DNA of 45,884 nt from Acidobacteriota bacterium (GTDB lineage Bacteria; Acidobacteriota; Terriglobia; Terriglobales; Acidobacteriaceae), in assembly GCA_021804965.1 (NCBI GenBank), contig JAJZGG010000013.1:1-45884 (forward strand). The letters run 5' to 3'. The first letter of the stretch is position 1. Each line of letters opens with the position of its first letter. The notes beneath the pieces are model-generated. The model was not told the DNA's origin and did not search any database. It saw nothing but the letters and a program-made list of their open reading frames with translations. The position numbers and the translations under genes were made by a program. Positions 13,182-29,413 of this stretch are shown here, in pieces.

Positions 13182-13186
13182 GTTGC

Positions 13187-14593
13187 TTATGCGACCGCAG
13201 TCTCCACGCCGATATTCAGCGCTGAGGCCATGATGGTGTTCAGAATGGTGAATGCCTGGGAGGCTGCCTGATAGGAGCGTTCATACTGCTGCATCATGCT
13301 GGCCTCCTCGTTCAGATTCACGCTGGAGAGCGCACTGATCTGATTCTGCAACTGGGTCACCGAGGCACCCAGCGCCGTGCTCGCCGTCGTGGCCGAGGAG
13401 ACGGCAGTCCCCAGCGTGCTGATCAGATTCGAGTAGTAGTTGGAGGGCGACGATCCACTGACGATGGATTGATTGGCCAGATTGGCCATGGCCACAATAT
13501 TGGAGTTGTCTCCCGTCCCGTTGCCCAGTCCGGCTGCGGCAATGTGATTCGGGTCCGTCATCACGACGCTCATGCCGGCAGCGCTTCCGCTGACCGCCGT
13601 GGGAGCGGCAAAGATATTTCCCGCGCCTCCATTGTCCCCGGCCAGATCCGTTCCGGCATTGTTCACCGTATTCACCTGGGTCGAGATGCTGTAGGCCAAC
13701 TGATCCAGAGAGGCCAGGGTGCTGGGGATCACCTGATCGCGCACCGTCAGCTGACCGCCAATCTGCCCGCCACCGGAGGCCAGCTGGCTGGTAATATCCG
13801 TGCCATTCAGATAAATATGCGTGGTGCCACCCACCATTCCCGTCGCCAAGGCAATGGAATTTCCGCTGGTCGCCAGCAACTGGCCGGCCGTCGTGGTCAC
13901 GCTCAGGCCATTGTTTTCCGTGGTCACCAGGTTGATGCCAATCAGCTGCGAAAGCTGGGAGAGATCATTCTGTCGCTGATCCTCCAGCACACCGGCATCC
14001 TGCGTGGGAGAGGTGGACTGAATCTGCTGACTGATCTGTGCCAGCGAAGCCGTCAGCGTATTCACCTGGGAGACCGCTGAGGTGATCGACTGGTTCAACG
14101 ACGACTGCTGCGCACTCAGGCTGTTCGCCGTACCGGACACGTCCCCGGCCAGCACGGTCGCCGTGGACAGAACCTGCTGGCGAAGCGGGTTGCTGGTCGG
14201 TGAGGTCTCCAACTGCGTCAGCGAATTGAAGAAGTTCGTGATATCCGTTCCAATATTTCCACTGCTGGTGCTGCTGCTGGCCACCGTAAAGTTTGTCTGC
14301 AGCGTGGTGAGCGCCGACTCCATGGCACTGGCCGAGGCACTCGCCTGCTGCTGCTGAAACAGCCGCTGGTTCAGAATGCGATCCCGCTGGGAGACGCCGC
14401 CCGTCATCGTGACGCCCGTTCCATACCCCACACCGTTCACATAGATCGGCGAGTTCTCCTGCCAGTTGGCCACCTGTCGCGTGTACCCGGTATTCGAGGC
14501 GTTGGCCACGTTGTTGGACACCACATCGAGCGCGCCCTGATCCGCATTCAGAGCACTGGTAATCACATTCAATGCCGAGCTAATTGTCCCCAT
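13187..14593 (-). CDS. flgK: Flagellar hook-associated protein FlgK
   Basis: A 468-residue FlgK (HAP1), which joins the hook to FlgL. The N-terminus contains the rod/hook signature ALDVVSNNVANASNTGYTRQ. A helical Ser/Gln-rich middle follows, and the C-terminus ends with SSVNLNEEASMMQQYERSYQAASQAF, the conserved axial-protein end. The ATG overlaps the flgN stop by 14 nt, so translation of the chaperone and its client is coupled. Transcription most likely comes from the sigma-28-type promoter before flgM. Confidence 0.95.
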   Translation of the reverse strand: MGTISSALNVITSALNADQGALDVVSNNVANASNTGYTRQVANWQENSPIYVNGVGYGTGVTMTGGVSQRDRILNQRLFQQQQASASASAMESALTTLQTNFTVASSSTSSGNIGTDITNFFNSLTQLETSPTSNPLRQQVLSTATVLAGDVSGTANSLSAQQSSLNQSITSAVSQVNTLTASLAQISQQIQSTSPTQDAGVLEDQRQNDLSQLSQLIGINLVTTENNGLSVTTTAGQLLATSGNSIALATGMVGGTTHIYLNGTDITSQLASGGGQIGGQLTVRDQVIPSTLASLDQLAYSISTQVNTVNNAGTDLAGDNGGAGNIFAAPTAVSGSAAGMSVVMTDPNHIAAAGLGNGTGDNSNIVAMANLANQSIVSGSSPSNYYSNLISTLGTAVSSATTASTALGASVTQLQNQISALSSVNLNEEASMMQQYERSYQAASQAFTILNTIMASALNIGVETAVA

Positions 14594-14978
14594 AGCATGC
14601 CCCCGCCGATCGATGCTGCCAGTTCTCCCACTGCTCCAAGGTTCCCGCCTCGGCCTTCAACCGAAGCAGATGCAGATGCGTCAACACGCGAAGATTGGCT
14701 CGCGTCTCCTCCAGCAGCCGCGCCAGCGTGGCAAGCGACTGCCGCTCCGCCGAAACTCCCGCAGCGGAGCTGCTCGCAATGGACCTGCGCGGAATGGACA
14801 AAGGCGACGGCGCCTTGGAACGCCGTGACTGTTTCGGCTGCCGGTTCAGGTCCGCGCAGCACCGGGCAAGCTCCTCCAGACGGTCTGCATCCATTTGGAT
14901 CAGCGCCTCTGTCGCTTCCTGCAACAGTTCCTGCCAGCACGCATCCTGCCGCTTTGCTTCAGCATCCACTGGAAACAT
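14580..14978 (-). CDS. flgN: FlgN-like export chaperone
   Basis: A 132-residue, mainly helical and charged protein. FlgN binds FlgK and FlgL in the cytoplasm and delivers them to the export gate. The sequence (LLQEATEALIQMDADRLEELARCCADLNRQ, then a long second helix) has the length and helical pattern of the family, but similarity is weak. Position between flgM and flgK, with a 14-nt overlap on flgK, is the main support. The ATG at 14978 is preferred, with GGAAGG upstream; the frame continues to 15047 in sequence that looks non-coding. Confidence 0.7.
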   Translation of the reverse strand: MFPVDAEAKRQDACWQELLQEATEALIQMDADRLEELARCCADLNRQPKQSRRSKAPSPLSIPRRSIASSSAAGVSAERQSLATLARLLEETRANLRVLTHLHLLRLKAEAGTLEQWENWQHRSAGACYGDN

Positions 14979-14994
14979 CCCTTGTCGATCCTTC

Positions 14995-15022
14995 CCTGCG
15001 CAATTTGCCCTGCACAATTTGC
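14995..15022. repeat. 14-nt tandem repeat before flgN
   Basis: CCTGCGCAATTTGC (14995-15008) and CCTGCACAATTTGC (15009-15022) differ at one base; a partial third copy follows. It lies in the flgM-flgN gap (14979-15123), which otherwise shows no gene. Confidence 0.7.
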
Positions 15023-15123
15023 CTGCGCGCGCGTTTCCCTGCTGCACTCCACTTCGCTGCCGAGGAGCGTCGCGTCACGCTTGCACCTGCCGCGAGACGG
15101 CAATCCAAGGCAGCACCGCTCCG

Positions 15124-15444
15124 TTACGCCTGTTCGCCCACCATCATGCTCTGCATCAGCTTGCCGGCCACCTGCGAGGCGGATACGTTGTATGTCCCCG
15201 CCGCCAGTGCACTTTGCACACGCTGGACCACCGCCGTGCGCACATCGGAGCTGCCGCCGTCGGCCGGCAGCGTCTGGGACAACTGCGTGGCCGCAGCACT
15301 CACCCGGGCCTGATCATTGCCTGCCGGCGCACTTCCATCCCGGACGCCGGCCGCCTGGGACGGTCGGGCCGCTCCGGCCACCTCACTGGCAGCACCGGAG
15401 GCACGGGTCAAATTCGAGTTTTCAATGCCATTGCGGATATTCAT
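15124..15444 (-). CDS. flgM: Anti-sigma-28 factor FlgM
   Basis: A 106-residue FlgM, which holds FliA inactive until the hook is finished and is then exported. The C-terminal sigma-binding region is recognisable: SSDVRTAVVQRVQSALAAGTYNVSASQVAGKLMQSM, matching the family pattern VR...V..I..GxY.V....VA.KL. The N-terminal half is disordered and Ala/Gly/Ser-rich, as in other FlgMs. GGGAG lies 9 nt before the ATG. It is the first gene after a sigma-28-type promoter, so FliA would feed back on its own inhibitor. Confidence 0.88.
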   Translation of the reverse strand: MNIRNGIENSNLTRASGAASEVAGAARPSQAAGVRDGSAPAGNDQARVSAAATQLSQTLPADGGSSDVRTAVVQRVQSALAAGTYNVSASQVAGKLMQSMMVGEQA

Positions 15445-15464
15445 TCTTCTTCTCCCACTGTGCA

Positions 15465-15491
15465 GTATCGGCGAGTTCTCTAATCACTTCA
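15465..15491 (-). promoter_or_regulatory. Sigma-28 (FliA)-type promoter of flgM
   Basis: On the minus strand TGAAGTGA (15491-15484), an 11-nt spacer, then GCCGATAC (15472-15465). It matches FliA consensus at 5 of 8 (-35) and 7 of 8 (-10) positions. It lies at the very end of flgJ, and transcription would begin about 14 nt before the flgM ATG. It would drive flgM, flgN, flgK and flgL. Confidence 0.6.
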
Positions 15492-15492
15492 G

Positions 15493-16077
15493 TCATTCGA
15501 GGGGAGATTTTCCGGAAATCCTGTTCTGCTTTCCCACAGCGGCAGTCCTGCCTTTGCGCTGTCCCAATCCGGACACTCTTCCGGTCGCTTCGGCTCCGGA
15601 ATGGCGTTCGGCCACCTCCGCCTTCAGCTTCTTCAGCACACTGTCGGCAATGCCAAATCCACCGTGCAGGGACAAGGCCTCGCCCAGTGCCTCGGAGGCA
15701 AACGAGGTTAACGCCTGATTCGACCCGCCGTCATCCTCATCCTCCCCAAGACCATCCATGCCTTCCAGTTGCTGCGTCAGCGGACCCAGCAACTGCTGCA
15801 TCATGGCGGCTTCAAACTGATGGGCTGCGGTCTGCAGGCGCGGAGACAGCACTTGCGATGCCGGGTCGGAAGTAGCTGTCCCGGCCTGCGCCATGCTCGC
15901 CTGCGCCAGGCTGGCCTGCCCCGCACTGGCCTGCCCGCGCAAACTCAGCCCGCGCAAGCCCATCGCTGCCGTCGCCGGCAATCCACCGCCCAGGCTCCTG
16001 CCTGCTGCGGATGGTCCGAGCCTCCCCTGCGACGCCGCCATCGACTGCGGCTGAAGTTGCGTAAGCCCCACACTCAT
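15493..16077 (-). CDS. flgJ: FlgJ-type rod-binding protein without muramidase domain
   Basis: A 194-residue protein. The rod-binding core is at about 82-155: HQFEAAMMQQLLGPLTQQL, then NQALTSFASEALGEALSLHGGFGIADSVLKKL, the pattern of the FlgJ N-terminal domain that caps the growing rod. The C-terminal peptidoglycan hydrolase domain of enterobacterial FlgJ is absent, so another enzyme must open the wall. The first about 75 residues are low-complexity with a pentapeptide repeat. Its ATG overlaps the flgI stop (ATGA), with GGAGG upstream inside flgI. Confidence 0.8.
   Translation of the reverse strand: MSVGLTQLQPQSMAASQGRLGPSAAGRSLGGGLPATAAMGLRGLSLRGQASAGQASLAQASMAQAGTATSDPASQVLSPRLQTAAHQFEAAMMQQLLGPLTQQLEGMDGLGEDEDDGGSNQALTSFASEALGEALSLHGGFGIADSVLKKLKAEVAERHSGAEATGRVSGLGQRKGRTAAVGKQNRISGKSPLE
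15886..15945. repeat. 15-nt in-frame tandem repeat in flgJ
   Basis: Four diverged 15-nt units (15886-15900, 15901-15915, 15916-15930, 15931-15945), each beginning CTGC. They give GQASA/GQASL/AQASM/AQAGT-like pentapeptides in the FlgJ N-terminal region. Confidence 0.7.
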
Positions 16078-17564
16078 AAGACCTCCAGATCGGCTTCCAG
16101 AGCACCGGCCGCCTTCATCGCCTGCAGGATGGAGATCACATCCCGCGCCGTTGCTCCAATCTTTTGCAATTCACTGACCAGATCCTCCACCGTTGCTCCC
16201 TGCTTCAGCTCAATCCGGTTGACCGGCCGATCATTGGCCTGGACGGTGGTCTGCGGAACCACCTGCGTTGTCCCCTGTCCAAAGGCATTGGGCTGCGAGA
16301 CCTGAAATTCGGTGACAACATTGACCGATAATCCGCCATGCAGAATCTGCACCGGCTGCAGCCGGACCTTGCCGCCAATGACCACCGTACCCGTGCGCTC
16401 GTTGACCACCACCCGGGCGCGCGGATAGACATCAATCTCGGTCGATTCGACCCGGTCCAGCAGCTCCGGCAGATCCTCGCCCGGCTGCGGAATCAGCTCC
16501 ACGGTGCGGCTGTCGACGACGTGCGCACGCGGCGCTCCCAGCGAGACATCGATGGCCTGGGCCATGCGGTCGGCGGTATGGAAATCGGCATCCTGCAGCT
16601 CCACATCAATCCGGTGCAGCTGCTTCAGGCTGAAGGGAACCGTTCGCTCCACCAGCGCGCCGCCGGGAATCCGCGCCGTCGTCGGATAGTTGACCTGGGT
16701 CGTGTTGAATCCGGCCGAAACACGATATCCGCCAATGACCAGCGGACCTTCGGCCTGCGCGTAAATCTGACCATCCGGACCATAGAGCGGCGACAGCAGC
16801 AGGACACCGCCTTCGAGAGATCGGGCATCGCCCGCCGAGGAGATCGTCACGTCGATCTTCTCCCCGGTATGGCTGAATGGCGGCAGCGTGGCTTCAATAA
16901 ACACGGCGGCCATATTCTTCACCTGCATGTTCTGCGCGCTCAGCGTGCCTGTCTGCGGCACGTTCACGCCCATGCGCAACAGAATCGACAGCAGCGACTG
17001 CATGGGAAAGATCGTCTGCTGCGTGTCGCCGGTACCCCGCAGGCCCACCACAACGCCATAACCCACCAGCTGGTTGTCACGGATGCCTTCAATCGAGGCC
17101 ACATCCTTGATGCGGGCACGGCGCTGCGCCTGAGGATCCATCGACGCGGCAGTCGCTGCCGGCGGCGACGGCATTCCGCCGGGGCCAGAGACGCCGGGGC
17201 CAGAAACGCCGGAGCCAGAGACGCCCGGGGCAGGCACGCCGGTCGCTGCCGGAAGAATTGCTCCGGCAGGCGGCTGGCTAATCCCGGTGGCCGCGCCCGG
17301 AGCTGCAACCGGAACCGGAAGCGCTGAATTTGCAGCTGGATTCCTGGCTGCATTCGCTGCCGGATTCTGGGCTGGATTCGGGGCCGCATTCGGAGCCGGA
17401 TTCGGAACCGGATTCTGGGCCGGATTGCCCGCCGCAGCGGGGCGGTTGGCCGGCAGTTGCGCCAGAAGGCTACTGGCTGGCATCCCCAGCAGGAGCCAGG
17501 CGGCAAGCATTCCGGCTGCCACGGAGCGAAAGGTCGAGTGGTTCGGCATATGCGTCTTATCCAT
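16074..17564 (-). CDS. flgI: Flagellar P-ring protein FlgI with long N-terminal extension
   Basis: A 496-residue FlgI, the periplasmic ring around the rod in the peptidoglycan layer. A signal peptide-like segment (about 12-36) is followed by an unusual Pro/Ala/Asn/Gly-rich stretch of roughly 110 residues made of tandem repeats. The conserved protein then starts at RIKDVASIEGIRDNQLVGYGVVVGLRGTGDT and ends VEDLVSELQKIGATARDVISILQAMKAAGALEADL. Typical FlgI is about 350-380 residues, so the insertion accounts for the extra length. The gene starts at the flgH stop (TGATG) and ends overlapping flgJ (ATGA). An ATG at codon 6 is an alternative start. Confidence 0.95.
   Translation of the reverse strand: MDKTHMPNHSTFRSVAAGMLAAWLLLGMPASSLLAQLPANRPAAAGNPAQNPVPNPAPNAAPNPAQNPAANAARNPAANSALPVPVAAPGAATGISQPPAGAILPAATGVPAPGVSGSGVSGPGVSGPGGMPSPPAATAASMDPQAQRRARIKDVASIEGIRDNQLVGYGVVVGLRGTGDTQQTIFPMQSLLSILLRMGVNVPQTGTLSAQNMQVKNMAAVFIEATLPPFSHTGEKIDVTISSAGDARSLEGGVLLLSPLYGPDGQIYAQAEGPLVIGGYRVSAGFNTTQVNYPTTARIPGGALVERTVPFSLKQLHRIDVELQDADFHTADRMAQAIDVSLGAPRAHVVDSRTVELIPQPGEDLPELLDRVESTEIDVYPRARVVVNERTGTVVIGGKVRLQPVQILHGGLSVNVVTEFQVSQPNAFGQGTTQVVPQTTVQANDRPVNRIELKQGATVEDLVSELQKIGATARDVISILQAMKAAGALEADLEVL
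17178..17237. repeat. 15-nt in-frame tandem repeat in flgI
   Basis: Four units (17178-17192, 17193-17207, 17208-17222, 17223-17237) of the form GCCGGGGCCAGAGAC encode GVSGP-type pentapeptides just before the conserved FlgI domain. Confidence 0.8.
17335..17430. repeat. 12-nt in-frame tandem repeat in flgI
   Basis: Eight 12-nt units of the form GCCGGATTCKGG encode four-residue NPAP/NPAQ/NAAP-like repeats directly after the FlgI signal peptide region. Confidence 0.8.
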
Positions 17565-18316
17565 CAGAAGACCAGCAGCTTCTGGACAAATCGCCAGAGC
17601 GGATTCTGTCGATACGTGGAGTCGTTGACGATTCCCTTGCCCACAACCTCAATCTCCAGATCCGTCATGGCCGAGGAATCCACCTGATTCAAAAAATTCA
17701 CATCTTCCGGCCTCACCAGCCCGCGCAGACGAATCAACTGCGTCTGTTGCGAGAAGGTCAGCTGCCGGGTGGCCTGCACCACCAGCATGCCGTTCGGCAG
17801 CATGTCGACCACCTCTCCGCCGAAGGTGGTCACCAGGCTCGAGTTGGTCACGCTCTGGCCCTGGGCCGCAAGCGTCGAGGTGGAGTTCTGTCCCAGCAGA
17901 TTGGCCAGCGTGCTGGTCGTCTTGGGCACGCCGAACAGGCCGGTAAATCCTGTATTGGCGGAGCTGGCACGGGAGTTCTTCACCTGTCCGTCGGTGGAAG
18001 CCGCCAGACTCTCCGTCACCACAATCTGGATCACATCATGCAGCTTGGTCGCCTTGGCATCGTCGGACAGTCGCACCAGACTTCCCTGATCCGACCAGAT
18101 CGACCCCGGGCTCAGCACCTCGGCATCGTGCTCGGCACGAACCCGCTGCACATAGGCTGCCAGCGCCTCTTCCGGAGGCGTCGGCTTGGCCACGGCCTTC
18201 GTTTTCTTGTGGCGACCGAGAGCTGCCGCTGCCGGACCGGCACAGGCGCCCAGCGCCAGGCAGGCGACCAGCAGAGAGATCCCCGAAATCCGAACTGCGC
18301 GTTCCAAGCTCACCAT
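17564..18316 (-). CDS. flgH: Flagellar L-ring lipoprotein FlgH
   Basis: A 250-residue FlgH, the outer-membrane ring of the basal body. The start MVSLERAVRISGISLLVACLALGAC ends in a lipobox (LALGAC), consistent with a lipoprotein. Conserved parts include GSIWSDQGSLVRLSDDAKATKLHDVIQIVV, the GGEVVDMLPNGMLVVQATRQL segment and RGLVRPEDV. The ATG at 18316 has GGAGG upstream and overlaps the flgA end by 7 nt; the frame stays open to 18925 only because it runs antiparallel in phase to flgA sequence. The presence of FlgH implies a Gram-negative envelope. Confidence 0.93.
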   Translation of the reverse strand: MVSLERAVRISGISLLVACLALGACAGPAAAALGRHKKTKAVAKPTPPEEALAAYVQRVRAEHDAEVLSPGSIWSDQGSLVRLSDDAKATKLHDVIQIVVTESLAASTDGQVKNSRASSANTGFTGLFGVPKTTSTLANLLGQNSTSTLAAQGQSVTNSSLVTTFGGEVVDMLPNGMLVVQATRQLTFSQQTQLIRLRGLVRPEDVNFLNQVDSSAMTDLEIEVVGKGIVNDSTYRQNPLWRFVQKLLVF

Positions 18317-18942
18317 CCGGCCTCCATCTGTTGCCCATCCCAGCGAGCCAATCCCGGAGCAATGGCCTGAACGCGAATCCGATGTCCGCCCAGCCTGCCG
18401 AAGCTGCCATTGCCCACCTGCAGCCTTGCCGGCAGCCAGGCTCCCACCGCAGCCGCCGCCATGGCCACTGCGGGAAATCGTGCCACCACCGTACTCCCGG
18501 ATTGCACCACCACGATGGCCTCTCCCACTTGAATCACAGGATGCATTGCGACCGCAGGATGGGAAGCTTCCTTCGGCGCCACGCTGGCGATGGACTGCCC
18601 GCTGTCGGGATGCTGCGATGCCTGCGCGGACTGCCCCCGCTTGCCTTCGGTCCCGGCGGCACATGCCGGCTGCTCGCCCTCGCCGACAGGCACCAGACGA
18701 TTCGGCCGACCCGGCCCTTGCGGCTCCAGTCGCCAGCGCAGGCCCAGTCCCCGATCGACAATCAGTCGAAGGCAGCCCTGCGCGACCCCGGCAGGAGAAC
18801 CCACCTTGACGGCATCTGCGGCAGCGATCCCGGCCGACGGCGTCCCGGCCTGCATGGCCGGAATCCAGAATGCTCCCCAAAGCCCCAGACCGGCCCACGC
18901 ACAGGCCCAACCGCATCTCCTCCATGCCCTGAATTGCCTCAT
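18310..18942 (-). CDS. flgA: FlgA-like P-ring assembly chaperone
   Basis: A 210-residue exported protein (hydrophobic segment about 13-30). The C-terminal about 75 residues resemble the FlgA SAF-type beta-clip: HPVIQVGEAIVVVQSGSTVVARFPAVAMAAAAVGAWLPARLQVGNG and an ending in IRVQAIAPG. The N-terminal half is divergent. FlgA helps FlgI assemble in the periplasm, and its place between flgG and flgH-flgI supports the call. The start is 7 nt past the flgG stop, with GAGGA upstream. Confidence rests on context plus the C-terminal pattern. Confidence 0.72.
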   Translation of the reverse strand: MRQFRAWRRCGWACAWAGLGLWGAFWIPAMQAGTPSAGIAAADAVKVGSPAGVAQGCLRLIVDRGLGLRWRLEPQGPGRPNRLVPVGEGEQPACAAGTEGKRGQSAQASQHPDSGQSIASVAPKEASHPAVAMHPVIQVGEAIVVVQSGSTVVARFPAVAMAAAAVGAWLPARLQVGNGSFGRLGGHRIRVQAIAPGLARWDGQQMEAGW

Positions 18943-18949
18943 GCCGTCC

Positions 18950-19738
18950 TCACTGCGTCATGTTGTTGACCTGGGAATACATCTGGTCGGCCGCCTTGAT
19001 CACCTTCGAATTCGACTCGTAGGCCCGCTGCGCCAGCACCATCTGGACAAACTCGGTCACCACATCCACGTTGGAGTTTTCCAGATACCCCTGCTGCAGC
19101 ATGCCCAGACCCTCCACGCCTCCCGGATTGCCCACGATGGGATTGCCCGAAGCCAGCGTTTGCGTCAGCAGGTTGCCGCCCATGCTCTCCAGCCCGCCGG
19201 GGTTGGGAAAGGTGGCCAGCTGAATCTGTCCCAGCTGCGAGGGATTGGTCTGTCCGGGCAGCGTCGCATTCACCACGCCATACGGGGTAATGGTCACCGA
19301 GGTGGCATTCGGAGGCACGGTGATGGTCGGAATCAACGTATCTCCGTTGGAGGTTACGATTGTGCCCTGATTGTTGAGCTGAAACTGCCCCGCGCGGGTA
19401 AAGGCGATCTGGCCATTGAGCTGCTGCACCTGAAAGAATCCCGCCCCTTCAATGGCCACATCCAGCGGATTGTTCGTCTGGTTCAGCTCGCCCTGGGTCA
19501 TGATCACCTCGGTCGCCGCCGGCAGCGTGCCCAGACCAATCTGCAGACCGGCAGAGATCGTCGACTGGGTCTGCGCCGCGCCCGGGGTAATCAGGTTCTG
19601 GTACAGCATGTCCTGGAACTGCAGGCGCAGCTGGTGAAATCCGGTGGTTGAGGAGTTCGCCAGATTGTTGGCGATCGTGTCCAGATTCATCTGCTGCGCC
19701 ATCATGCCGCTGGCCGCCGTATAAAGTGCTCGTATCAT
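18950..19738 (-). CDS. flgG: Flagellar distal rod protein FlgG
   Basis: A 262-residue FlgG, the usual length, forming the distal rod through the periplasm. The N-terminus is MIRALYTAASGMMAQQMNLDTIANNLANSSTTGFH, with LQFQDMLYQNLITPGA, characteristic of FlgG. The C-terminus VEGLGMLQQGYLENSNVDVVTEFVQMVLAQRAYESNSKVI is conserved. AGGAG precedes the ATG. It follows flgF by 88 nt. Confidence 0.97.
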   Translation of the reverse strand: MIRALYTAASGMMAQQMNLDTIANNLANSSTTGFHQLRLQFQDMLYQNLITPGAAQTQSTISAGLQIGLGTLPAATEVIMTQGELNQTNNPLDVAIEGAGFFQVQQLNGQIAFTRAGQFQLNNQGTIVTSNGDTLIPTITVPPNATSVTITPYGVVNATLPGQTNPSQLGQIQLATFPNPGGLESMGGNLLTQTLASGNPIVGNPGGVEGLGMLQQGYLENSNVDVVTEFVQMVLAQRAYESNSKVIKAADQMYSQVNNMTQ

Positions 19739-19826
19739 CCTGTTCTCCTGTCCTGCCGATTCCCTGGATCGTTCTCCAGGCTTTGCGTCCGACTCCTGCC
19801 CGAAGTGCCATCCCGCCCGGGCAAGG

Positions 19827-20561
19827 CTAGACCCGCGGCAGCTCCTCGGCGGCTGTCTTGTTGAAGTCCATATGGAAGATCGTCAGCGCCTTCTGCATGG
19901 TCTCTGCCTGGCGCTGCATCAGAATCAGCTTCATGCTGCCGGTGATCGTGTCCTGATTGGACTCCTCCAAGGCATGCGAGTGAATCCCGGCACTGGACAG
20001 CGTTGTCTTCACCTTGTCCGGCGCGCGGTAGCGATTGGTTCCCTCTGGCGTCAGCTGTGTTCCCTTGGGAAACTGAAAGACCCCCACCACGGCAACGGCT
20101 CCGCCATCGACGGAAAGCACGCCGTCATTGCCGACGGCAATCTCGCCGGGAGGAATCACAATGGACTTGTTCTGCGTGGACAGCACCGGATCCCCGGTGC
20201 TGTTGACCAGAATGCCGGTATTGCTGCGATGAAAGCCGCCGTTGCGCGTGTAGCGCACTCCGGCGGGCGTCTGCGTGGCAAAGAAGCCCTCGCCCTGAAT
20301 GGCAAGATCCAGCGGATTGCCGGTTGCCGTCAGCGCTCCCTGACTCATATCCAGCTGATCCCCATGGACCACGCCGTAGTTGTTGACTGTTGTGCCCAGC
20401 TGCGAGTTCCCTGCCAGTGGATCCAGCAGCACCGAACGAAAGTTTTCGCGCTCGGCACGATAGCCAACCGTCTGCGCATTGGCCAGGTTGTCTGCGGCAG
20501 CATCGAGGGCCTGTGTCCGGGCGATGTAACCGGCATAGGCGGCATAGTAGCCACTGTCCAT
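19827..20561 (-). CDS. flgF: Flagellar proximal rod protein FlgF
   Basis: A 244-residue rod protein with the axial N-terminal motif ALDAAADNLANAQTVGYRAE, a central LDLAIQGEGFFATQTPAGVRYTRNG segment shared by FlgF and FlgG, and a C-terminal helix with SMKLILMQRQAETMQKALTIFHMDFNKTAAEELPRV. The variant ends and the pairing with flgG favour FlgF. AGGAGG lies 6 nt before the ATG. The 289-nt stretch upstream to cheX shows no gene, only a strong hairpin. Confidence 0.88.
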   Translation of the reverse strand: MDSGYYAAYAGYIARTQALDAAADNLANAQTVGYRAERENFRSVLLDPLAGNSQLGTTVNNYGVVHGDQLDMSQGALTATGNPLDLAIQGEGFFATQTPAGVRYTRNGGFHRSNTGILVNSTGDPVLSTQNKSIVIPPGEIAVGNDGVLSVDGGAVAVVGVFQFPKGTQLTPEGTNRYRAPDKVKTTLSSAGIHSHALEESNQDTITGSMKLILMQRQAETMQKALTIFHMDFNKTAAEELPRV

Positions 20562-20850: not shown

Positions 20851-21336
20851 CTATTGCAGACCGTCGCAGATGATCGTCACCTCAAAGCCCGAGCCATCGA
20901 AGCGGTAGCACTGGTGCAGGCGAAACTCCGGCGCCTGCACGTGGATGTTGTAATCCCGTCCGGTAATCACGGCAGGAATGGACAGTCCGCAGTTGGCAGA
21001 CAGATCCGGCACCTTGCCCTTCCACGCACCGGCCAGCATATTGCAGATCTCTCCAATGGCATCCTTGACCGTGTCATCCATTTCCGTAAAGCCCATCCCG
21101 GTCAGCCGCTCGGCAATCGCAAGCGCCGTTCCTCCATCGGAACGGAAGACGCAGGCTCCCGTGAGCATTCCGCCAAAGCCAACCACGGAGGTGATGGTTT
21201 CCGCCGATGCCACACCACTACAGGGCACCATCTCACATCGCACCCCCAGCATGGTTTCAAAGACCTCTTCCACGCTCGACTGCAGATGCATTGGATCTGC
21301 TACTGTTTGAAGATTCTCACGCAGCGACTGCGCCAT
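20851..21336 (-). CDS. cheX: CheX-like CheY-P phosphatase
   Basis: A 161-residue protein of the CheC/CheX/FliY family, which dephosphorylates CheY-P. The ExxN phosphatase motif is intact in DAIGEICNMLAGAWKGK (Glu96, Asn99), and the VVGFGGMLTGACVFRSD and later beta-strands match CheX. Only one ExxN is present, as in CheX (CheC has two). The ATG at 21336 has AGGAAG upstream; the frame is open to 21477. It follows cheY by 155 nt, and the pairing fits substrate and phosphatase made together. Confidence 0.88.
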   Translation of the reverse strand: MAQSLRENLQTVADPMHLQSSVEEVFETMLGVRCEMVPCSGVASAETITSVVGFGGMLTGACVFRSDGGTALAIAERLTGMGFTEMDDTVKDAIGEICNMLAGAWKGKVPDLSANCGLSIPAVITGRDYNIHVQAPEFRLHQCYRFDGSGFEVTIICDGLQ

Positions 21337-21491: not shown

Positions 21492-21872
21492 TCAGGCAGC
21501 CAACAGCGGCAGCACGCGCTCTTTCACCTGCTCGGCTGTGAACGGTTTGCGAATATAGCCCTGCGCCCCTGCCTGAATGGCCTGCCGCACATGCTCCTCG
21601 CTGGACTCGGTGGTGATCATCACCACCGGCACGCCATCGGCAAGATTCTGGGCGCGCAGCTGACGCAGAAACTCCAGTCCATCCATCGATGGCATATTGA
21701 TGTCGGACAGAATCAGCTGCACCGATCCGGCACGCAGCGCATCCAACCCCTCCACGCCGCTTCCCGCCTCCAGAACCACCAGCGGCTCCAGCCCCGCCTG
21801 CCGCAAGGCACGCTCCACAATCTTGCGCATCACCGATGAATCATCCACGATCAAGACGCGAATCTCGCTCAT
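21492..21872 (-). CDS. cheY: CheY-type single-domain response regulator
   Basis: A 126-residue receiver domain. The acid pair Asp10-Asp11, the phospho-acceptor Asp57 (SDINMPSMDG), Thr87-Thr88 and Lys109 (YIRKPF) are all present. It would bind FliM when phosphorylated and change motor rotation. The ATG at 21872 is set by AAGGAG (21886-21881); the frame is open to 21941 but runs through a tandem repeat. It is encoded between an MshEN-domain gene next to the switch genes and cheX; no cheA is in the window. Confidence 0.93.
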   Translation of the reverse strand: MSEIRVLIVDDSSVMRKIVERALRQAGLEPLVVLEAGSGVEGLDALRAGSVQLILSDINMPSMDGLEFLRQLRAQNLADGVPVVMITTESSEEHVRQAIQAGAQGYIRKPFTAEQVKERVLPLLAA

Positions 21873-21881
21873 TCCAAGTTC

Positions 21882-21971
21882 TCCTTGATTGCCCGATACG
21901 AATTTGCCCAGTACTGGATTGCCCCATGCTGGTTTGCCCAATGCCTGATTGCCCCATACTGGATTGCCCTA
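21882..21971. repeat. Six-unit 15-nt tandem repeat in the cheY leader
   Basis: Consecutive 15-nt units at 21882-21896, 21897-21911, 21912-21926, 21927-21941, 21942-21956 and 21957-21971, of the form TACTGGATTGCCCCA. The unit nearest cheY overlaps its ribosome-binding site. It lies in the presumed untranslated leader, not in a gene. Confidence 0.85.
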
Positions 21972-21989
21972 TGTCTCTTGATAGGCTAT

Positions 21990-22052: not shown

Positions 22053-22973
22053 TCACGGTCGTCCAATGGCGCAGACCACATCCTCCACCTGTGCCGCATC
22101 GGCTGGCACACCCGCACTCAGCCGCCGCCACATCCGCAGCCAGAGAAAATCCCGCATCCGCACCAGGCGCGACTCCACCGGCTTCACCTTTTCCACCACG
22201 CGGCTCAGGGCTCTTGCCACCTGCGCTTCGCTGGAAACCTCCAGCAGCTCCACGCGCGGAAACGGTGCCGACAACATCTGGCTGTGCGCGGCACGAAACT
22301 CGGAATCCGGCACCAGCACCGGCTCCACGCGCACGTCCAGCATCCGCTCCACTCCAAGCGCCACCACCGGATCGGGACGGTCCTCAAAGCCGAGATAGAG
22401 CAGCCTCCGGGTTGCCATCCGCAGCGGCAACGCCCCAAAGGCATCCAGAAACAGACGCGGCAGCGCCGAGGCCATCGCCTCGCGATCATGAAAGGGCAGC
22501 GAAACCACCGGGCAGCTCCACTGCAATCCCAACGCACGCGCCACCAGCTGCTCGGAGACACCCTCCTGCCGCACCAGCCAGCTGCCAAGACGACCTTCAC
22601 CACTGCTGCGCTGTGCCTCCAAGGCGCGGCGCAGCTGTCCGGCATCAATCCATCGCTGCTCCAGCATCAGCAGCCCCAGCGGAATGCGATGCTGATAGAG
22701 ACGCGTCTCCGGCGAGCGCCCCTCCAGCTCACGGCGTACAGCCGCCTCCACCCGTCGCTCGGTGCAACCGGCCGAACACGACCATCCCCCTTCAAAGATC
22801 GGAACCGATCGGCTGCGCAGCAGATGCATCCACCCGGTGGCGCACTCCGGATTGGAACAGCTGGGGAAGAATCCACCACGAACAGGTTGCGCCTGCTCCG
22901 GCATCGCTTCCCGCGCCGCAGCCGGTCGGGATGCAGAATTGGGATCCTGAGGTTGCGAATCTAAAACAGGCAT
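22053..22973 (-). CDS. MshEN (GspE N-terminal)-domain protein with Cys cluster
   Basis: A 306-residue soluble protein with no ATPase domain. Residues 98-121 and 128-151 are two 24-residue motifs of the form xLGxxLxxxxxxxxxxLxxALxxQ (PLGLLMLEQRWIDAGQLRRALEAQ-like, then RLGSWLVRQ to LQ). Together they make the bipartite MshEN fold that binds c-di-GMP in MshE. N-terminal to this are four cysteines (39, 44, 66, 70) in a zinc-ribbon-like arrangement. The last 150 residues are unassigned. It overlaps the fliN end by 13 nt and precedes cheY, so it belongs to the flagellar operon. It could link c-di-GMP to the switch or CheY; it could also be an assembly factor. Confidence 0.68.
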   Translation of the reverse strand: MPVLDSQPQDPNSASRPAAAREAMPEQAQPVRGGFFPSCSNPECATGWMHLLRSRSVPIFEGGWSCSAGCTERRVEAAVRRELEGRSPETRLYQHRIPLGLLMLEQRWIDAGQLRRALEAQRSSGEGRLGSWLVRQEGVSEQLVARALGLQWSCPVVSLPFHDREAMASALPRLFLDAFGALPLRMATRRLLYLGFEDRPDPVVALGVERMLDVRVEPVLVPDSEFRAAHSQMLSAPFPRVELLEVSSEAQVARALSRVVEKVKPVESRLVRMRDFLWLRMWRRLSAGVPADAAQVEDVVCAIGRP

Positions 22974-23815
22974 CGGATGCTCTCCAATCTGCGCTGCGGC
23001 TCGGCCACCTGGGTCACCCGCAGGCCAAAGTTTCCATTCACCAGCACGACCTCGCCGCGGGCGATGATCTTGTCGCCGACAACCAGGTCCACCGGATCGC
23101 TGATGTGGCGATCCAACTGCACCACATCCCCCGGTCCCAGATCGAGAATCTCTCCCAGCGGCAGCTCACGCGAACCAAAGCGCAGCGAAGCCTCCAGCTC
23201 CACATCCAGCAGCAACTGCAACCCTTCGGACAGCATGGATGTGTCCGTGGGCGAGGCTCCGAGGCCACCGGACGGGGCACTGCTTCCTGCCCCGGCCGGA
23301 GGCGCTGTTTCCACCTGCTCCTTCGGCTGCCCGGATTTTTCCTCCATCGACTTTTTGCTTGCGGTCGCGGATTTCCGGGCTCCCTCCCCACGGTTCGCCT
23401 TCAGGTCGCTGGCCACCAGCAGGGTCCAGCTTCGATCTCCGGCCTTCAGCTGAAAGGAGCGGGTGATCTTGCTCTCCGGCCCTGCCTCCTCAAAGCCCGT
23501 CACCTGGCACTTGGCTCCGGTCCGCGCCAGCAGCTCTCCGGCAGCGGCATCGACGGTCTCGCGCAGCAGCTCCATCCAGGCGGCTCGCGCATCCGGCACA
23601 TCGCCCAACAGCGCAGCCTCCAGCAGGCCACCATCCAGCAACAGGACCAATCGTCCCGTTTCGTCCCCATCGATGGTTGCGGCAAAGCCAAAGGAGCCTT
23701 CCGGAAGCGGCTTGGGCAGCGACTCGCTCAGAACCGGCTCTCCCATCAGCGCCTGGCCAAACAGACTGGTCGCAACCGTGATCCAGCAGTCGAGATAACG
23801 GACCGATTCGCTCAT
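22961..23815 (-). CDS. fliN: FliN/FliY-like motor switch protein with CheC-like N-terminal region
   Basis: A 284-residue protein. The C-terminal SpoA domain (about 205-277: LLDVELEASLRFGSRELPLGEILDLGPGDVVQLDRH to VNGNFGLRVTQV) is typical of FliN in the C-ring. The first about 130 residues look like a CheC-type fold (GFAATIDGDETGRLVLLLDGG and ELLRETVDAAAGELLA). The place of the phosphatase ExxN motif reads ETVD, so activity is doubtful. A Lys/Glu/Pro/Gly linker joins the two. Length and layout resemble FliY. It starts in a 4-nt overlap with fliM (ATGA). A second, shorter SpoA protein is encoded at 32107-32505. Confidence 0.85.
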   Translation of the reverse strand: MSESVRYLDCWITVATSLFGQALMGEPVLSESLPKPLPEGSFGFAATIDGDETGRLVLLLDGGLLEAALLGDVPDARAAWMELLRETVDAAAGELLARTGAKCQVTGFEEAGPESKITRSFQLKAGDRSWTLLVASDLKANRGEGARKSATASKKSMEEKSGQPKEQVETAPPAGAGSSAPSGGLGASPTDTSMLSEGLQLLLDVELEASLRFGSRELPLGEILDLGPGDVVQLDRHISDPVDLVVGDKIIARGEVVLVNGNFGLRVTQVAEPQRRLESIRCLF

Positions 23816-24771
23816 TTCCCTGCCTCCTCCACTTCCATCTCCAGTCGCGCGCCCCGATGCACACCCAGCCGGATGGGCTGTGCCTCAAAGAGCTTCTGCC
23901 CGTTCACGCGAAACTCCGAAATCCGATTCACCGGAAGATCCAGCCGGACGATCTTGCCCACGGCCAGATCCTCAAGATCGCGCGCCTCCATGCGGACCGA
24001 AGGCAGCTGCAGCGCAGCGCCAAAGCTCAGCTTGCGCACCGTCTGCTCCATGCGCCGGCGCGTCTCTCCGGCATGGCGTCTCCGCCCTCCCCACTCCCCG
24101 GTCAACCGGCGCAGGATCGTGTTGGCCACCACTGCAGGGAAGGCCAGATTCAGCAGCCCCGAGGACTCCTGCATGCGAATCTCAAAGCTCAGGCAGAGCG
24201 TCTTCTCCGTCACCGGCATGATGCGTGCGGTCTGCGTCTGCATCTGGCGTCGCTCAAAGTTGAAGCTCAGTCCCACCGTCTGCCAGGCCGTCGTCAACTC
24301 GCGGCAGATAATCTCCACCACACTGGCCACAATCGCCTCTTCAATATCCGTCAGCTCGCGAAGCTCTCCGGATTGGCCCTCCCCGCCCAGCAGAAGATCA
24401 ATCATCGCCGGCGCCATGCCCAGATCCAGCTGGAGGACGGACAGCGCACCCAGCGGCTCCAGACGCACCGAGGCAATGTAGGAGATCTCCGGAATCCGCA
24501 GCAGAAATTCGTTGAAGGGAATCTGCTCGGCGGAAACCAGATTCACCTGCAGCCGTGTCCGAAGCCAGGCCGAGAGATTGTGCGTCAGATTGCGGGCAAA
24601 GAGATCGTTGAGCATGCTGATGGCACGCAGCTGCTCGGTGGAAATCTGTCCTGCGGCAGCGAAATTATAGGGAAGCACGCGCGCCTTGATCTGCGCTCCG
24701 GCCTCCGGAGTGGTGGCACGCGCTGCCTGAAACAAGGCATCAATTTCATCCTGCTTGAGTGTTTTCTCCAT
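23812..24771 (-). CDS. fliM: Flagellar motor switch protein FliM
   Basis: A 319-residue FliM, the C-ring subunit that binds CheY-P, FliG and FliN. The N-terminal CheY-P-binding motif is present as LKQDEIDALF (5-14). The middle domain (PEISYIASVRLEPLGALSVLQLDLGMAPAMIDLLLGG) and a C-terminal SpoA domain (VGKIVRLDLPVNRISEFRVNGQKLF) follow. GGAG precedes the ATG at about 11 nt. Transcribed after fliA with a 158-nt gap that contains a 12-nt tandem repeat. Confidence 0.96.
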   Translation of the reverse strand: MEKTLKQDEIDALFQAARATTPEAGAQIKARVLPYNFAAAGQISTEQLRAISMLNDLFARNLTHNLSAWLRTRLQVNLVSAEQIPFNEFLLRIPEISYIASVRLEPLGALSVLQLDLGMAPAMIDLLLGGEGQSGELRELTDIEEAIVASVVEIICRELTTAWQTVGLSFNFERRQMQTQTARIMPVTEKTLCLSFEIRMQESSGLLNLAFPAVVANTILRRLTGEWGGRRRHAGETRRRMEQTVRKLSFGAALQLPSVRMEARDLEDLAVGKIVRLDLPVNRISEFRVNGQKLFEAQPIRLGVHRGARLEMEVEEAGK

Positions 24772-24929: not shown

Positions 24930-26024
24930 TCATCGCGGAATGGGAACTCCACTGCGGGGATGCGTGCGCTGCAGCATGGCCTTGGGCAGTGCCTCCACGC
25001 CCGACCGCAGACCGGTGCGCGCGGGCCGCTTTTCCATCCGTCGCGCCAGATCTGCCAGTGCCGCACGCAGGTGCAACACCGCCGAGGCATGTATCTGCGA
25101 GACGCGCGACTCGACCACCCCCAGAGCCAGTCCGATCTCGCGCATCGTCATCTCCTCGAAATAGTAGAGCGTCATCACCAGCCGCTCCCGTTCCGGCAGC
25201 CCGCGAATGGCCTCCGCCAACCGCTCCTGCATCTCCCCGTGCAGACATCGAAAGAGCGGATCATCCTCGACGCGACCCGGCACATACGCCAGCTCCTCTT
25301 CGCCGGAGTCCTCGTTGCGCTCCATGTGCAGCGTGCCAATCTCCAGACCCTTCAGCTCGCCCAGCAGCTGCTGATAGCTCTCCAGCTCCAGACCCAGCTC
25401 CCTGGCCACCTCGGCCTCCGACGGCGCCCGACCCAGATTGGCCGTCAGCTGGCGAATCGCCTCCTCGACGGCACGGCCCTTGCGCCGCAGCTCGCGCGGG
25501 CTCCAGTCCAGCGTGCGCAGGCTGTCCAGAATGGCTCCGCGAATCCGGAACTGCGCATAGCTGCGAAACTGAACCTTCTTGGCCGGATCAAATTTGCTGA
25601 AGGCATCCATCAGGCCCACCACGCCGGCCGAGACCAGATCCTCCATCTCGACATGTTGCGGAAGCCGCTCATGAATGCGCCGCGCCAGGAAGCGCACCAT
25701 CGGCAGATGCTCCAGCAGGATCCGCTCCTGCTCGGGCGTGAACTCCGTTCGGCTGGCTCCGTAGCCGGTCCTGCCCAGACTGAGCGCAATCCGCTGCAGC
25801 GATCCGTCTGCCTCGACCTCCGCCTCGACCTCCGCCTCCACCTCTGCCTCCACCTCCTGCGCGAAGCAGTCGTCCTGGCTGAGAGTTTCCTCATCGAGCC
25901 GGACTGGATCGCTGTCGCCATCCGGTTGGGATTTCGCGCTACGCCCACCCCGGACAGACTTCTGCGCACTGCCGGTCCCATCGATTCTGCGTCGGTTACT
26001 CTTCTGGTCTTCCATCTGCGACAT
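24930..26024 (-). CDS. fliA: Flagellar sigma factor FliA (sigma-28)
   Basis: A 364-residue sigma factor for late flagellar genes. Regions 2 (HLPMVRFLARRIHERLPQHVEMEDLVSAGVVGLMDAFSKFDP, KKVQFRSYAQFRIRGAILDSLR), 3 (ELRRKGRAVEEAIRQLTANLGRAPSEAEVARELG) and 4 (LPERERLVMTLYYFEEMTMREIGLALGVVESRVSQIHASAV) are complete. Usual FliA is about 240 residues; here about 90 N-terminal residues are added, including an EVEA tetrapeptide repeat, and about 30 basic residues at the end. GAGGGAG precedes the ATG. It lies between flhA and fliM; no flhF or flhG is present here. Confidence 0.95.
   Translation of the reverse strand: MSQMEDQKSNRRRIDGTGSAQKSVRGGRSAKSQPDGDSDPVRLDEETLSQDDCFAQEVEAEVEAEVEAEVEADGSLQRIALSLGRTGYGASRTEFTPEQERILLEHLPMVRFLARRIHERLPQHVEMEDLVSAGVVGLMDAFSKFDPAKKVQFRSYAQFRIRGAILDSLRTLDWSPRELRRKGRAVEEAIRQLTANLGRAPSEAEVARELGLELESYQQLLGELKGLEIGTLHMERNEDSGEEELAYVPGRVEDDPLFRCLHGEMQERLAEAIRGLPERERLVMTLYYFEEMTMREIGLALGVVESRVSQIHASAVLHLRAALADLARRMEKRPARTGLRSGVEALPKAMLQRTHPRSGVPIPR
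25810..25857. repeat. Four-copy 12-nt in-frame repeat in fliA
   Basis: Units at 25810-25821, 25822-25833, 25834-25845 and 25846-25857 encode four EVEA tetrapeptides (about residues 57-72). They form a strongly acidic run in the N-terminal extension of FliA. Confidence 0.9.
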
Positions 26025-26081
26025 CGCGCTCCCTCAATCCCCTGTGTTCGCCTGGCATTTCCCTTGTTCCGCACCCCATCC

Positions 26082-28190
26082 TCAGCGGATGGTCCCAACC
26101 GCACGCAGTCGAATCTCCGGAGGAATATCGCTGGCAACCACCACGGCCATCCGTGGTGTCCATGGCTCAATCCACCGCTTGACGAAGTAGCGTGCCGGAC
26201 TCGGACAAAGGAGCACGGGAAGTGCCGTTGCCGGGGTGGAACCGATAAGCTGCCTCAAAGAATCGCCGAGGCGGCGAATCACCGGAACCCCGGACCGGCC
26301 CGGTGCCATCAGTTGCCGCTGGCCGGACTCCTGGGCCACGGCACTGAGCACCTCCTCCTCGAGCGGCGTATCCATCAGCACCACCGCCAGCTGCCCATCC
26401 GGATCAAGCAGCGGCTGAATCAGTCGGCGTCCCAGCGCATGCCGCGCGGCTTCCACCAGCGCCACCGTGCTCTTGTTCTGCGCAGCCACTTCCAGAATGG
26501 CTTCCAGAATCGTGCCCAGGTCGCGAATCGAAACCCGCTCGCGCAGCAGCTGCTCCAGCACCCGCTGCACCTCGCCCAGCGTCATCAGCTTGGGCACCAG
26601 CTCCTCCATCAGCTTGGGGTGGGAATCGTTCAGGCTGTCGAGCAGGCGTTTGGTTTCCGCACGGCTCAGCAGCTCATGGGCGTGCTGGCGCATCATCTCG
26701 CCCAGATGCGTCGTGACCACCGTCACCGGATCGACGACCGTGTACCCAGCCGCAATGGCCTGATCCTCCAGCCCGGGAGCAATCCACAGGGCCGGCACTC
26801 CGAAGGCCGGCTCACGGGTCTCCCGCCCCGGCAGCGGGCTCCGTGCCGCATCGGTGGTCACCGCCAGCAGCTGCGTCCCTTCGGTCTGCCAGCGTCCGAT
26901 CTCCATGCCGCGCAGGGAAAACAGATATTCCCGCGGACGCAGCCGAAGATTGTCCGAAATATGCACCGGCGGAATCAGGAAGCCCAGCTCCTGGGTCAGC
27001 TGACGGCGCAGCGTGCGCACGCGGCTCAGCAGCTGCCCTCCCTGCTTTTCATCCACCAGCGGAATCAGCTGGAAGCCAATCTCCAGCGTCAGCTCTTCGG
27101 TTCGCAGCAGCGCCGTCATCTCCTGCACCGCAGCCGTGGGTTGGCCGGCACCTGCCGCGGCGGCCGGAGCATCGGCAACCGCAGCCGCTGCCTTGCTGCC
27201 GCCCATGCTTCGGGCAATCACGATCAGACCTCCGGCCACGAGCAGAAAGGCAAACTTGGGCAGACCGGGAATCAGACACAGTGCCGCCGAGACTCCGGCA
27301 GCAATATAAAGCGTGGCCGGCTGGCCAAAGAGCTGGCTGCGCAGCTCGCCGGAGAGCGATCCGGCACCACTGGTTCGGGTCAGCGTGATGCCGCCGGCCA
27401 CCGAGACCAGCAACGAAGGGATCATCGTCACCAGTCCGTCTCCCACCGTCAGCACCGTGTAGGTGCGCACGGCCTCGCCCAGCGCCACGCCCTGCTGCAG
27501 TGTGCCAATCAGCAGTCCGGCAATGATGTTGATCGAGGTGATCAGAATCGTGGCCATCGAATCCCGCTGATTGAAACGCGCCGCGCCATCCATGGCACCG
27601 TAGAACTCCGCCTCGCGGGCAATCGCCTGGCGACGACGCCGGGCCTCCTGCTCGTTGATCAGCCCGGCATTCATATCCGCATCAATGGCCATCTGTTTTC
27701 CGGGCAGCGCATCGAGGGTAAAGCGGGCCGTGACCTCGGCCGTGCGCACGGCACCATGCGAGACCACCAGAAACTGGATCGCAATCAGGGCCAGAAACAG
27801 CACGAAGCCGACCACATAATTGCCGCCCACCACAAACTGCCCGAAGGCCTCAATCACCTTTCCGGCCGCCGTCGTTCCCTCCGAACCGTGCAGCAGAATC
27901 CTGCGGCTGGAGGCAATGTTCAGCGCCAGACGAAAGAGCGTCAGCAGCAGCAGCAGCGTGGGAAAGACACTCAGTTCCACGGCCCTTCGCACCTGCACGG
28001 CGGTTAAAAACACCACCATCGATGCGGCCATCGAGATGGCCAGCAGCAGATCCAGCGCCGCTGCCGGCAGCGGCACCAGCATCACAAAGATCACGCTGAT
28101 GGCACCGATCGGAAGCAGGTACTCCCGCAACCGCTCCAGCCAGGCCATGCGGCCACCGGCCAGCGGTGGACTCATTGCAACACTGCTCAT
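26082..28190 (-). CDS. flhA: Flagellar export gate protein FlhA
   Basis: A 702-residue inner-membrane component of the flagellar type III secretion gate. About eight membrane segments occupy the first half. The family signature TLLLLLTLFRLALNIASSRRILL, the FHIPEP-region FTLDALPGKQMAIDADMNAGLI and the channel motif TYTVLTVGDGLVTMIPSLLVSVAGG are intact. The cytoplasmic C-domain (from about 345) receives export substrates and chaperones such as FlgN. It starts in a 4-nt overlap with flhB and is followed by fliA after 57 nt. Confidence 0.97.
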   Translation of the reverse strand: MSSVAMSPPLAGGRMAWLERLREYLLPIGAISVIFVMLVPLPAAALDLLLAISMAASMVVFLTAVQVRRAVELSVFPTLLLLLTLFRLALNIASSRRILLHGSEGTTAAGKVIEAFGQFVVGGNYVVGFVLFLALIAIQFLVVSHGAVRTAEVTARFTLDALPGKQMAIDADMNAGLINEQEARRRRQAIAREAEFYGAMDGAARFNQRDSMATILITSINIIAGLLIGTLQQGVALGEAVRTYTVLTVGDGLVTMIPSLLVSVAGGITLTRTSGAGSLSGELRSQLFGQPATLYIAAGVSAALCLIPGLPKFAFLLVAGGLIVIARSMGGSKAAAAVADAPAAAAGAGQPTAAVQEMTALLRTEELTLEIGFQLIPLVDEKQGGQLLSRVRTLRRQLTQELGFLIPPVHISDNLRLRPREYLFSLRGMEIGRWQTEGTQLLAVTTDAARSPLPGRETREPAFGVPALWIAPGLEDQAIAAGYTVVDPVTVVTTHLGEMMRQHAHELLSRAETKRLLDSLNDSHPKLMEELVPKLMTLGEVQRVLEQLLRERVSIRDLGTILEAILEVAAQNKSTVALVEAARHALGRRLIQPLLDPDGQLAVVLMDTPLEEEVLSAVAQESGQRQLMAPGRSGVPVIRRLGDSLRQLIGSTPATALPVLLCPSPARYFVKRWIEPWTPRMAVVVASDIPPEIRLRAVGTIR

Positions 28191-29413
28191 TGCCGACCTC
28201 CCTCATCTGTTCTGCTGCGATTTCGACCCTTCGCCGGCCTGCCCACGCCCTTGGCCGTTCGCCCCCTGCCGGGCGTCGACGATCGCAATCTGCCGGCAAC
28301 CTCTGCCGGTGCAGGCGCAGGGCCCGGTCGAGGCTGCGCCGCCGCCCGCTGGCGCTGGCGCGCACTCTCCGTGACCCGCTGGCGATAGAGATAGGCCAGA
28401 ATCGACGCCACGGCGGCATACAGCTCCACGGGAATCGACTGTCCCGGTTCCACAACCCGATACAGCGACCGGGCCAGCGGCGGATTCTCCATCACCGGAA
28501 CTCCGGCCCAGCGCGCCTCCTGCTTGATCTCCTCGGCCAGCAGGTTGCGCCCCTTGGCCAGCACCTTCGGCGCCTCCATCGTCTCGAAATCGAAGCCCAG
28601 CGCCACGGCATAGTGCGTGGGATTGGTGATGACGACAGCAGCCTTGGCCACATCCTGCTTCACCCTGCGACGTCGCCCCTGTCGCTGCAGGCTGCGAATG
28701 CGGCTGCGAATCTGGGGATTGCCCTCGGTGTCCCGAAACTCCTCCCGCATCTCCTCGCGGCTCATGCGCAGTCGCATCTCACGGCTGCGCCACTCCACGG
28801 CGTAGTCAATTACGGCCCAGCCAAAGGTCACCCAGGCCGCCGCCAACAGCAGCGTCCACACGTCACTACCAAGTAGCGCCATGCGATCGGTCGAGAACGG
28901 TGCCACCAGCCACTGCTGCTCAATCCGCACCACCACAAAGACCCCGAGAATCGCCACCGGCAGCAGCGATTTTCCCAGCCGTGCCAGGGCGCGCAGCGAA
29001 AAGACGTTCTTGGCATTGGCCAGCGGACTGACCCGATCCAGCTTCCAGGCCAGCACCTGGGGATGGATCTGCAAGCCTCCGGTCTGCAGCATGCCTGCGC
29101 CCAGCGTGCCCAGCACCACCGCAGCACCCACCAGCGCAAACGGCTCCAGCGTTCTGCCCATCTCGGCCAGCAGCGCGCGCAGGGTTCTGCCCATCGACGC
29201 GCCTTCCCAGTTGCCGACATTGCCAAAGCCCATCACCACATCCAGGGAACCGGCCCAGCGCATCAGGAAATCGCCCCAGGCCACGCGCAGCAGCATCACG
29301 CCGGCCAGGGTTCCGGCCGCCGTCGTCAGCTCACGGCTGTGCGTAATGTCGCCTTCCCGGCGTGCCTTGTCGCGTCGTTGCGGAGTGGCTTTTTCTGTGC
29401 GGTCTCCCGGCAT
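28187..29413 (-). CDS. flhB: Flagellar export substrate-switch protein FlhB
   Basis: A 408-residue FlhB with the opening GDRTEKATPQRRDKARREGDI, four membrane segments and the self-cleavage site NPTH (near residue 263, in VVITNPTHYAVAL). Cleavage, with FliK, switches export from hook to filament substrates. The tail after the conserved domain is about 45 residues long and rich in Arg, Pro and Ala. It lies 2 nt after fliR and overlaps flhA by 4 nt. Confidence 0.96.
   Translation of the reverse strand: MPGDRTEKATPQRRDKARREGDITHSRELTTAAGTLAGVMLLRVAWGDFLMRWAGSLDVVMGFGNVGNWEGASMGRTLRALLAEMGRTLEPFALVGAAVVLGTLGAGMLQTGGLQIHPQVLAWKLDRVSPLANAKNVFSLRALARLGKSLLPVAILGVFVVVRIEQQWLVAPFSTDRMALLGSDVWTLLLAAAWVTFGWAVIDYAVEWRSREMRLRMSREEMREEFRDTEGNPQIRSRIRSLQRQGRRRRVKQDVAKAAVVITNPTHYAVALGFDFETMEAPKVLAKGRNLLAEEIKQEARWAGVPVMENPPLARSLYRVVEPGQSIPVELYAAVASILAYLYRQRVTESARQRQRAAAQPRPGPAPAPAEVAGRLRSSTPGRGRTAKGVGRPAKGRNRSRTDEGGRQ

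Follow-up and report, generated by a model that had tools for sequence, protein, structure and literature searches.

Within a 45,884-nucleotide stretch of DNA from an Acidobacteriota bacterium of the order Terriglobales (contig JAJZGG010000013.1, assembly GCA_021804965.1; hereafter the window), a gene at 22053–22973 of the minus strand lies inside a flagellar operon, directly after fliN, and encodes a protein of 306 residues that we call Zn-MshEN, a working name in which the zinc site is putative. With slightly better than even confidence, we consider this protein best explained as a cyclic di-GMP (c-di-GMP) receptor dedicated to the flagellum and acting at the FliN/FliM switch ring. The evidence comprises the domain identity and predicted fold, the conservation of the pocket, the fixed position after fliN and the near restriction of the gene to FliM-bearing genomes in a sample of its order.

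Domain layout and predicted binding pocket

The open reading frame (ORF) runs from an ATG at 22973 to a stop codon that ends at 22053, and its description draws on the translation, family models and a structure model. The window protein passes both curated MshEN family cut-offs, with 39.2 bits for NCBIfam NF053729 (MshE-related c-di-GMP motif; cut-off 38, E 4e-10) and 23.2 bits for Pfam MshEN (cut-off 23.1). In A2, an alignment of 75 rows that includes the window protein, NF053729 matches all 75 members at E ≤ 0.001, and Pfam MshEN matches 37 of them at E ≤ 0.01. The AlphaFold model (predicted local distance difference test, pLDDT, 88.2; predicted template modelling score, pTM, 0.83) contains the MshEN fold, with a four-helix MshEN_N and an alpha/beta MshEN_C subdomain, at residues 96–236, as judged by Foldseek and VIA-align matches. 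The fold anticipated by the first-pass annotation of this DNA was thus recovered in profile searches and predicted structure alike. MshEN is the sole Pfam match in the 306 residues, with no match to a C-terminal ATPase, PilZ or Cle-type receiver domain, and the type II/IV ATPase is indeed missing, as that annotation had stated. A3, a more diverse alignment of 32 rows, aligns in profile–profile comparison to PilB of the same phylum over residues 94–294 (probability 99.8%, E 1e-29); the domain is a relative of the PilB/GspE ATPase N-terminal domain, without the ATPase.

The two motifs of 24 residues each, motif I at residues 98–121 (22611–22682, minus strand) and motif II at residues 128–151 (22521–22592, minus strand), are separated by a spacer of six residues (122–127). 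This MshEN layout had been proposed in the first-pass annotation and is retained, except that motif I starts with Pro and not with Arg. The c-di-GMP contacts of MshE are R9, L10, G11, L25, L29 and Q32 in one motif and R38, L39, G40, L54, L58 and Q61 in the other (Wang et al., PMC5013675), and their window equivalents are P98, L99, G100, L114, L118 and Q121, and R128, L129, G130, V144, L148 and Q151. The sequence and A2 show that both motifs retain the Leu, Gly and Gln contacts: G100, L114, G130, L148 and Q151 are found in 75 of the 75 A2 rows, Q121 in 74 and L118 in 68. Position 144, which corresponds to Leu54 of MshE, is Val in 63 rows and Leu in 7, motif II begins with Arg in 70 rows and Lys in 5, and R96, two residues upstream of P98, is invariant. 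Across the 32 rows of A3, C44, C66, C70, G100, G130, Q151, P183 and W278 do not vary, and C39, L114, Q121, P172 and R280 hardly do, the start Met being conserved too. Conservation is higher in the 11 contact columns other than P98 than in the MshEN_N columns without contacts (p 0.002 in A2, 6e-6 in A3). Zn-MshEN very probably binds c-di-GMP.

The four-cysteine cluster noticed in the first pass (C39, C44, C66 and C70; codons 39–70, 22764–22859, minus strand) is invariant in all rows of A2 and may bind zinc; in N-terminal segments of three proteins (window protein, L135 and L143), no named zinc finger exceeded its Pfam cut-off. The C-terminal half, described earlier as unassigned, is so only for its last ~70 residues, since residues 152–236 (22266–22520, minus strand) form the MshEN_C subdomain (Pfam MshEN at 157–235, fold match up to 236). 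Residues 237–306 (22056–22265, minus strand) are modelled as a beta-alpha-beta-beta-beta domain and, in a profile comparison, weakly match the beginning of the PilB N2 region. This part reached a pLDDT of 88 when modelled separately, with no specific structural match, and alone against PilB it gave E 0.0012 at 20% probability, nine controls scoring 0.35 or worse. It may be what is left of the PilB N2 domain.

Position after fliN and spread across the phylum

In a sample of 150 Terriglobales genomes, own genome included, a protein search gave a match at E ≤ 0.001 in 123 genomes. Family members were assigned by reading the list: matches down to E 3.5e-15 represent 92 places in 88 genomes, and the weaker ones are long ATPase-type frames, save one frame of 178 residues. 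FliM is present in 95 of the 150; 87 genomes have both, 8 FliM only, 1 the gene only and 54 neither (Fisher 7e-31, uncorrected for relatedness). Even in the sole genome with the gene and without FliM (G102), a partial fliM match by tblastn adjoins the gene.

The position of the gene is also fixed. On the same strand as a FliM match and 650–1819 bp downstream of it lie 85 of the 92 places, and the remaining seven follow fliN in flagellar clusters, six by tblastn and one (G034) with a short fliN recognized by eye. Among the named loci, which are the best 80 of 114 matches and all close relatives, fliN is the upstream neighbour in 78, the other two being cut by contig ends, and in 73 of the 78 an in-frame start codon precedes the end of the fliN stop codon by exactly 13 nt. 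Downstream, cheY was found in 69 of the 80, flgF in 7 and no neighbour in 4. In the window the gene overlaps fliN by 13 nt (22961–22973, minus strand) and lies before cheY, across a gap of 180 bp; the first-pass annotation had read both the overlap and the order correctly, and the arrangement recurs in other flagellar operons. Terracidiphilus gabretensis and Silvibacterium bohemicum carry the gene. In several Terriglobales genomes (L034–L038, L160 and L169–L172), no fliM was found between fliA and fliN, and Zn-MshEN stays with fliN; such genomes have a FliM elsewhere, for example with cheY and cheX as neighbours (L160) or adjoining a fliN-like gene of opposite orientation (L169, L170 and L172).

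Elsewhere in the phylum, 20 regions were examined, and 13 of them are flagellar (L133–L142, L144, L145 and L151); one (L143) has the cysteines without a flagellar neighbour, and six (L146–L150 and L152) have no cysteine cluster, no flagellar neighbour and at most a cheY-like hit. FliM exceeded its cut-off in 47 of 297 sampled genomes outside the order, and in 15 of these 47 the gene lies beside flagellar genes. This survey covered 37 of the 47 in a further search and the other ten, all of family f24, with the A1 profile only, among the matches listed. Two copies (G279 and G322), ~1.5 kb downstream of FliM by coordinates, were assigned by position and not by their cysteines. The 47 also include a genome with a partial, unplaced copy (G339) and one (G372) with the non-flagellar copy L143. 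That gene, at L143:7249–8070 on the minus strand (family f53), encodes a Cys4-MshEN protein whose motif I starts with RLG, and fliM is on another contig of its genome. Ten families have the gene in all, f1 and f2 from the order itself and f8, f25, f29, f34, f38, f47, f59 and f63. Zn-MshEN is common, not universal. In the 13 flagellar copies from outside the order in A3, motif I starts with Arg in 5, Lys in 5, Leu in 2 and Thr in 1. A tree of 58 rows, which came with warnings for three very long end branches, parts the cysteine-bearing proteins from PilB and the cysteine-less MshEN proteins (branch 100/94), and another branch (100/98) divides the 18 Terriglobales rows with Pro from all others.

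The flagellar cluster and neighbouring genes

The cluster in the window reads, on the minus strand, flhB, flhA, a fliA-type gene, fliM, fliN, Zn-MshEN, cheY, cheX, flgF/G-type genes, flgH, flgI, flgK and a flagellin-N gene. Its upstream part, with flhB, flhA and the fliA-type sigma factor gene (24930–29413), is followed by fliM (23812–24771; Pfam FliM 5.6e-38) and fliN (22961–23815; 284 residues, FliMN_C 2.6e-23 at 201–271), whose product has a long N-terminal extension of ~200 residues without a Pfam match (23200–23815). After Zn-MshEN come cheY (21492–21872; Response_reg 9.5e-31), the phosphatase gene cheX (20851–21336; CheX 1.5e-17) and the flgF/G-type rod genes, flgH, flgI, flgK and flagellin-N (flgL-like) gene (12216–20561), with some intervening ORFs that lack a Pfam match. 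An imperfect tandem repeat with a 15/30-nt unit, GATTGCCCAATACTG, occupies 21886–21973 in the gap between Zn-MshEN and cheY. Two other long minus-strand ORFs, at 34982–37282 (766 residues) and 2202–3374 (390 residues), have no Pfam match at E ≤ 1e-5. A candidate diguanylate cyclase gene lies on the plus strand at 4919–6214 (GGDEF 1.7e-44; GGDEF motif with RxxD just before), and EAL domains occur at four places in the own genome, one of them partial.

In the f29 loci L134 and L135, fliN is followed by an HDOD-type gene, a gene for a coiled-coil, membrane-like protein, Zn-MshEN and flgF; in L135 the HDOD gene (6359–7276; HDOD 1e-61) is followed by the short coiled-coil, membrane-like gene at 7310–7729. 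Similar short genes precede Zn-MshEN in L140, L141, L142, L144 and L151; their coiled-coil and membrane-anchor character was judged by eye, and against DUF2802/DUF6115 they stay under the curated cut-offs or give no score. Four g4 genomes have a second-type flagellar operon with an HDOD-type gene, not Zn-MshEN, between fliN and flgF, on the minus strand at L164:5420–6088, L165:4936–5610, L166:5190–5915 and L162:5790–6473, the first identified by Pfam HDOD (8.5e-11) and the other three by eye. With either HDOD-type genes or Zn-MshEN found in it, the slot after fliN thus tends to hold signalling genes.

Proposed function at the switch and its alternatives

The reading with the most support is that of a c-di-GMP effector which would act at the switch. 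Zn-MshEN would be made together with FliN and most likely act at the FliN/FliM ring, its domain at 96–236 binding one c-di-GMP between the two motifs. The ligand would rearrange the two MshEN subdomains, and the cysteine-cluster or C-terminal part could then engage or release the switch, so that rotation is slowed or biased. That the protein acts on the flagellum is very probable; that it does so at the switch, rather than in assembly or expression, is only somewhat favoured. The motor brake or switch modulator suggested in the first-pass annotation is accordingly a role that we infer.

Several observations weigh against this reading. Motif I starts with Pro in all 75 A2 rows in place of the consensus Arg, which weakens the claim of c-di-GMP binding, and in PilF GSPII-A constructs binding was abolished when the motif-II Arg was put back to Ser (PMC12002112). 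Among 20 copies of the order (L033–L052), Q121 is replaced in four and G130 in one, so some copies may not bind. The gene is missing from 8 of the 95 FliM-positive genomes of the order and, among the matches listed, from about two thirds of the 47 outside it, and is thus not required for rotation. The L143 copy has no flagellar neighbours, and PilZ domains, at four places in the own genome, could serve the flagellum.

The altered residues, with Pro replacing the first Arg of motif I, Val replacing Leu at 144 and, in this protein, Arg replacing the turn Gly at 107, could also mean that in Terriglobales the domain is a retained scaffold that has lost c-di-GMP binding. We regard this as improbable, as the remaining contact residues persist and vary less than the positions around them. 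Moreover, the published consensus, in which Arg comes first, has been extended to Arg/Lys/Leu, and Arg is not obligatory, because PilF GSPII-C, with three motifs, two of which would hold the ligand, and Pro first in motif II, binds about as well as MshE, and GSPII-B, with Lys and Leu at the first motif positions, binds with a KD of 6 nM (PMC11731258). In MshE an Arg before motif I contacts a phosphate (PMC11731258), and the invariant R96 is likely at the place of this residue.

Clearly less probable than action at the switch is a c-di-GMP-dependent assembly or export factor that binds FliN and governs how the C-ring is assembled or substrates are exported, and not how the finished motor rotates. 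Such a factor would suit the fixed overlap with fliN, the retention of the gene beside fliN in clusters where no fliM was found between fliA and fliN, and the coiled-coil, membrane-anchored products, as judged by eye, of the upstream gene in several other families, which resemble SwrB, an activator of flagellar export. Against it, some flagellar clusters do without Zn-MshEN (L161, L163 and L168), and the frequent cheY neighbour in the named loci points to switching. A link between flagella and type IV pili, in which the PilB-like N-domain competes with PilB for a pilus partner and coordinates swimming with twitching, would fit the profile match of A3 to PilB and, according to structure titles, a solved complex of the X. 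citri PilB N-domain with PilZ. It is very unlikely: the gene is missing from 54 of the 55 FliM-negative genomes of the order, 32 of which have an ATPase-type long frame with an MshEN domain, and so follows flagella, not pili.

In some groups, c-di-GMP reaches the flagellar motor through PilZ proteins, of which YcgR and MotI are flagellar brakes. Zn-MshEN resembles these in its proposed job only, as it has no PilZ domain, and in the order sample YcgR-type N-domains occur in 3 and PilZNR in 0 of the 150 genomes. Another route is through the Cle proteins of Caulobacter, one of whose genes is in a chemotaxis operon (PMC5677366); these have the job proposed here, as c-di-GMP effectors at the flagellar switch, but they are CheY-like with an Arg-rich peptide, whereas Zn-MshEN has no receiver domain. 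To the MshEN/GSPII domains of MshE, PilB and PilF the likeness extends to the predicted fold, the motif length and the contact Leu, Gly and Gln residues; unlike them, Zn-MshEN lacks the ATPase, has a four-cysteine N-terminal part, a spacer of six rather than five residues and Pro at the start of motif I, and is encoded in a flagellar operon. MshEN also serves in signalling proteins that are not pilus ATPases: PMC5013675 lists fusions to REC, CheX, CheA or HD-GYP, and the main-text portion covered makes no mention of a Cys4-MshEN protein or of placement in flagellar operons. Our literature searches found no paper on such a flagellar gene, nor on c-di-GMP control of Acidobacteriota flagella.

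To the first-pass annotation, this analysis adds how the gene is spread, its constant overlap with fliN, the conservation of the pocket and the rarity of YcgR-type N-domains. We see an even chance that Zn-MshEN represents a new class of flagellar c-di-GMP effector, an ATPase-free MshEN domain of the pilus-ATPase type with a Cys4 part, which became co-translated with FliN and assumed the role of YcgR, as a brake or switch modulator responsive to c-di-GMP, in flagellated Terriglobales as well as in several further Acidobacteriota families. The c-di-GMP route to the motor is known in a few groups, and among soil bacteria the Acidobacteriota are a major phylum. Should the reading be true, the motor would have recruited one more receptor fold, and a conserved gene without an assigned role would gain a concrete, testable function.
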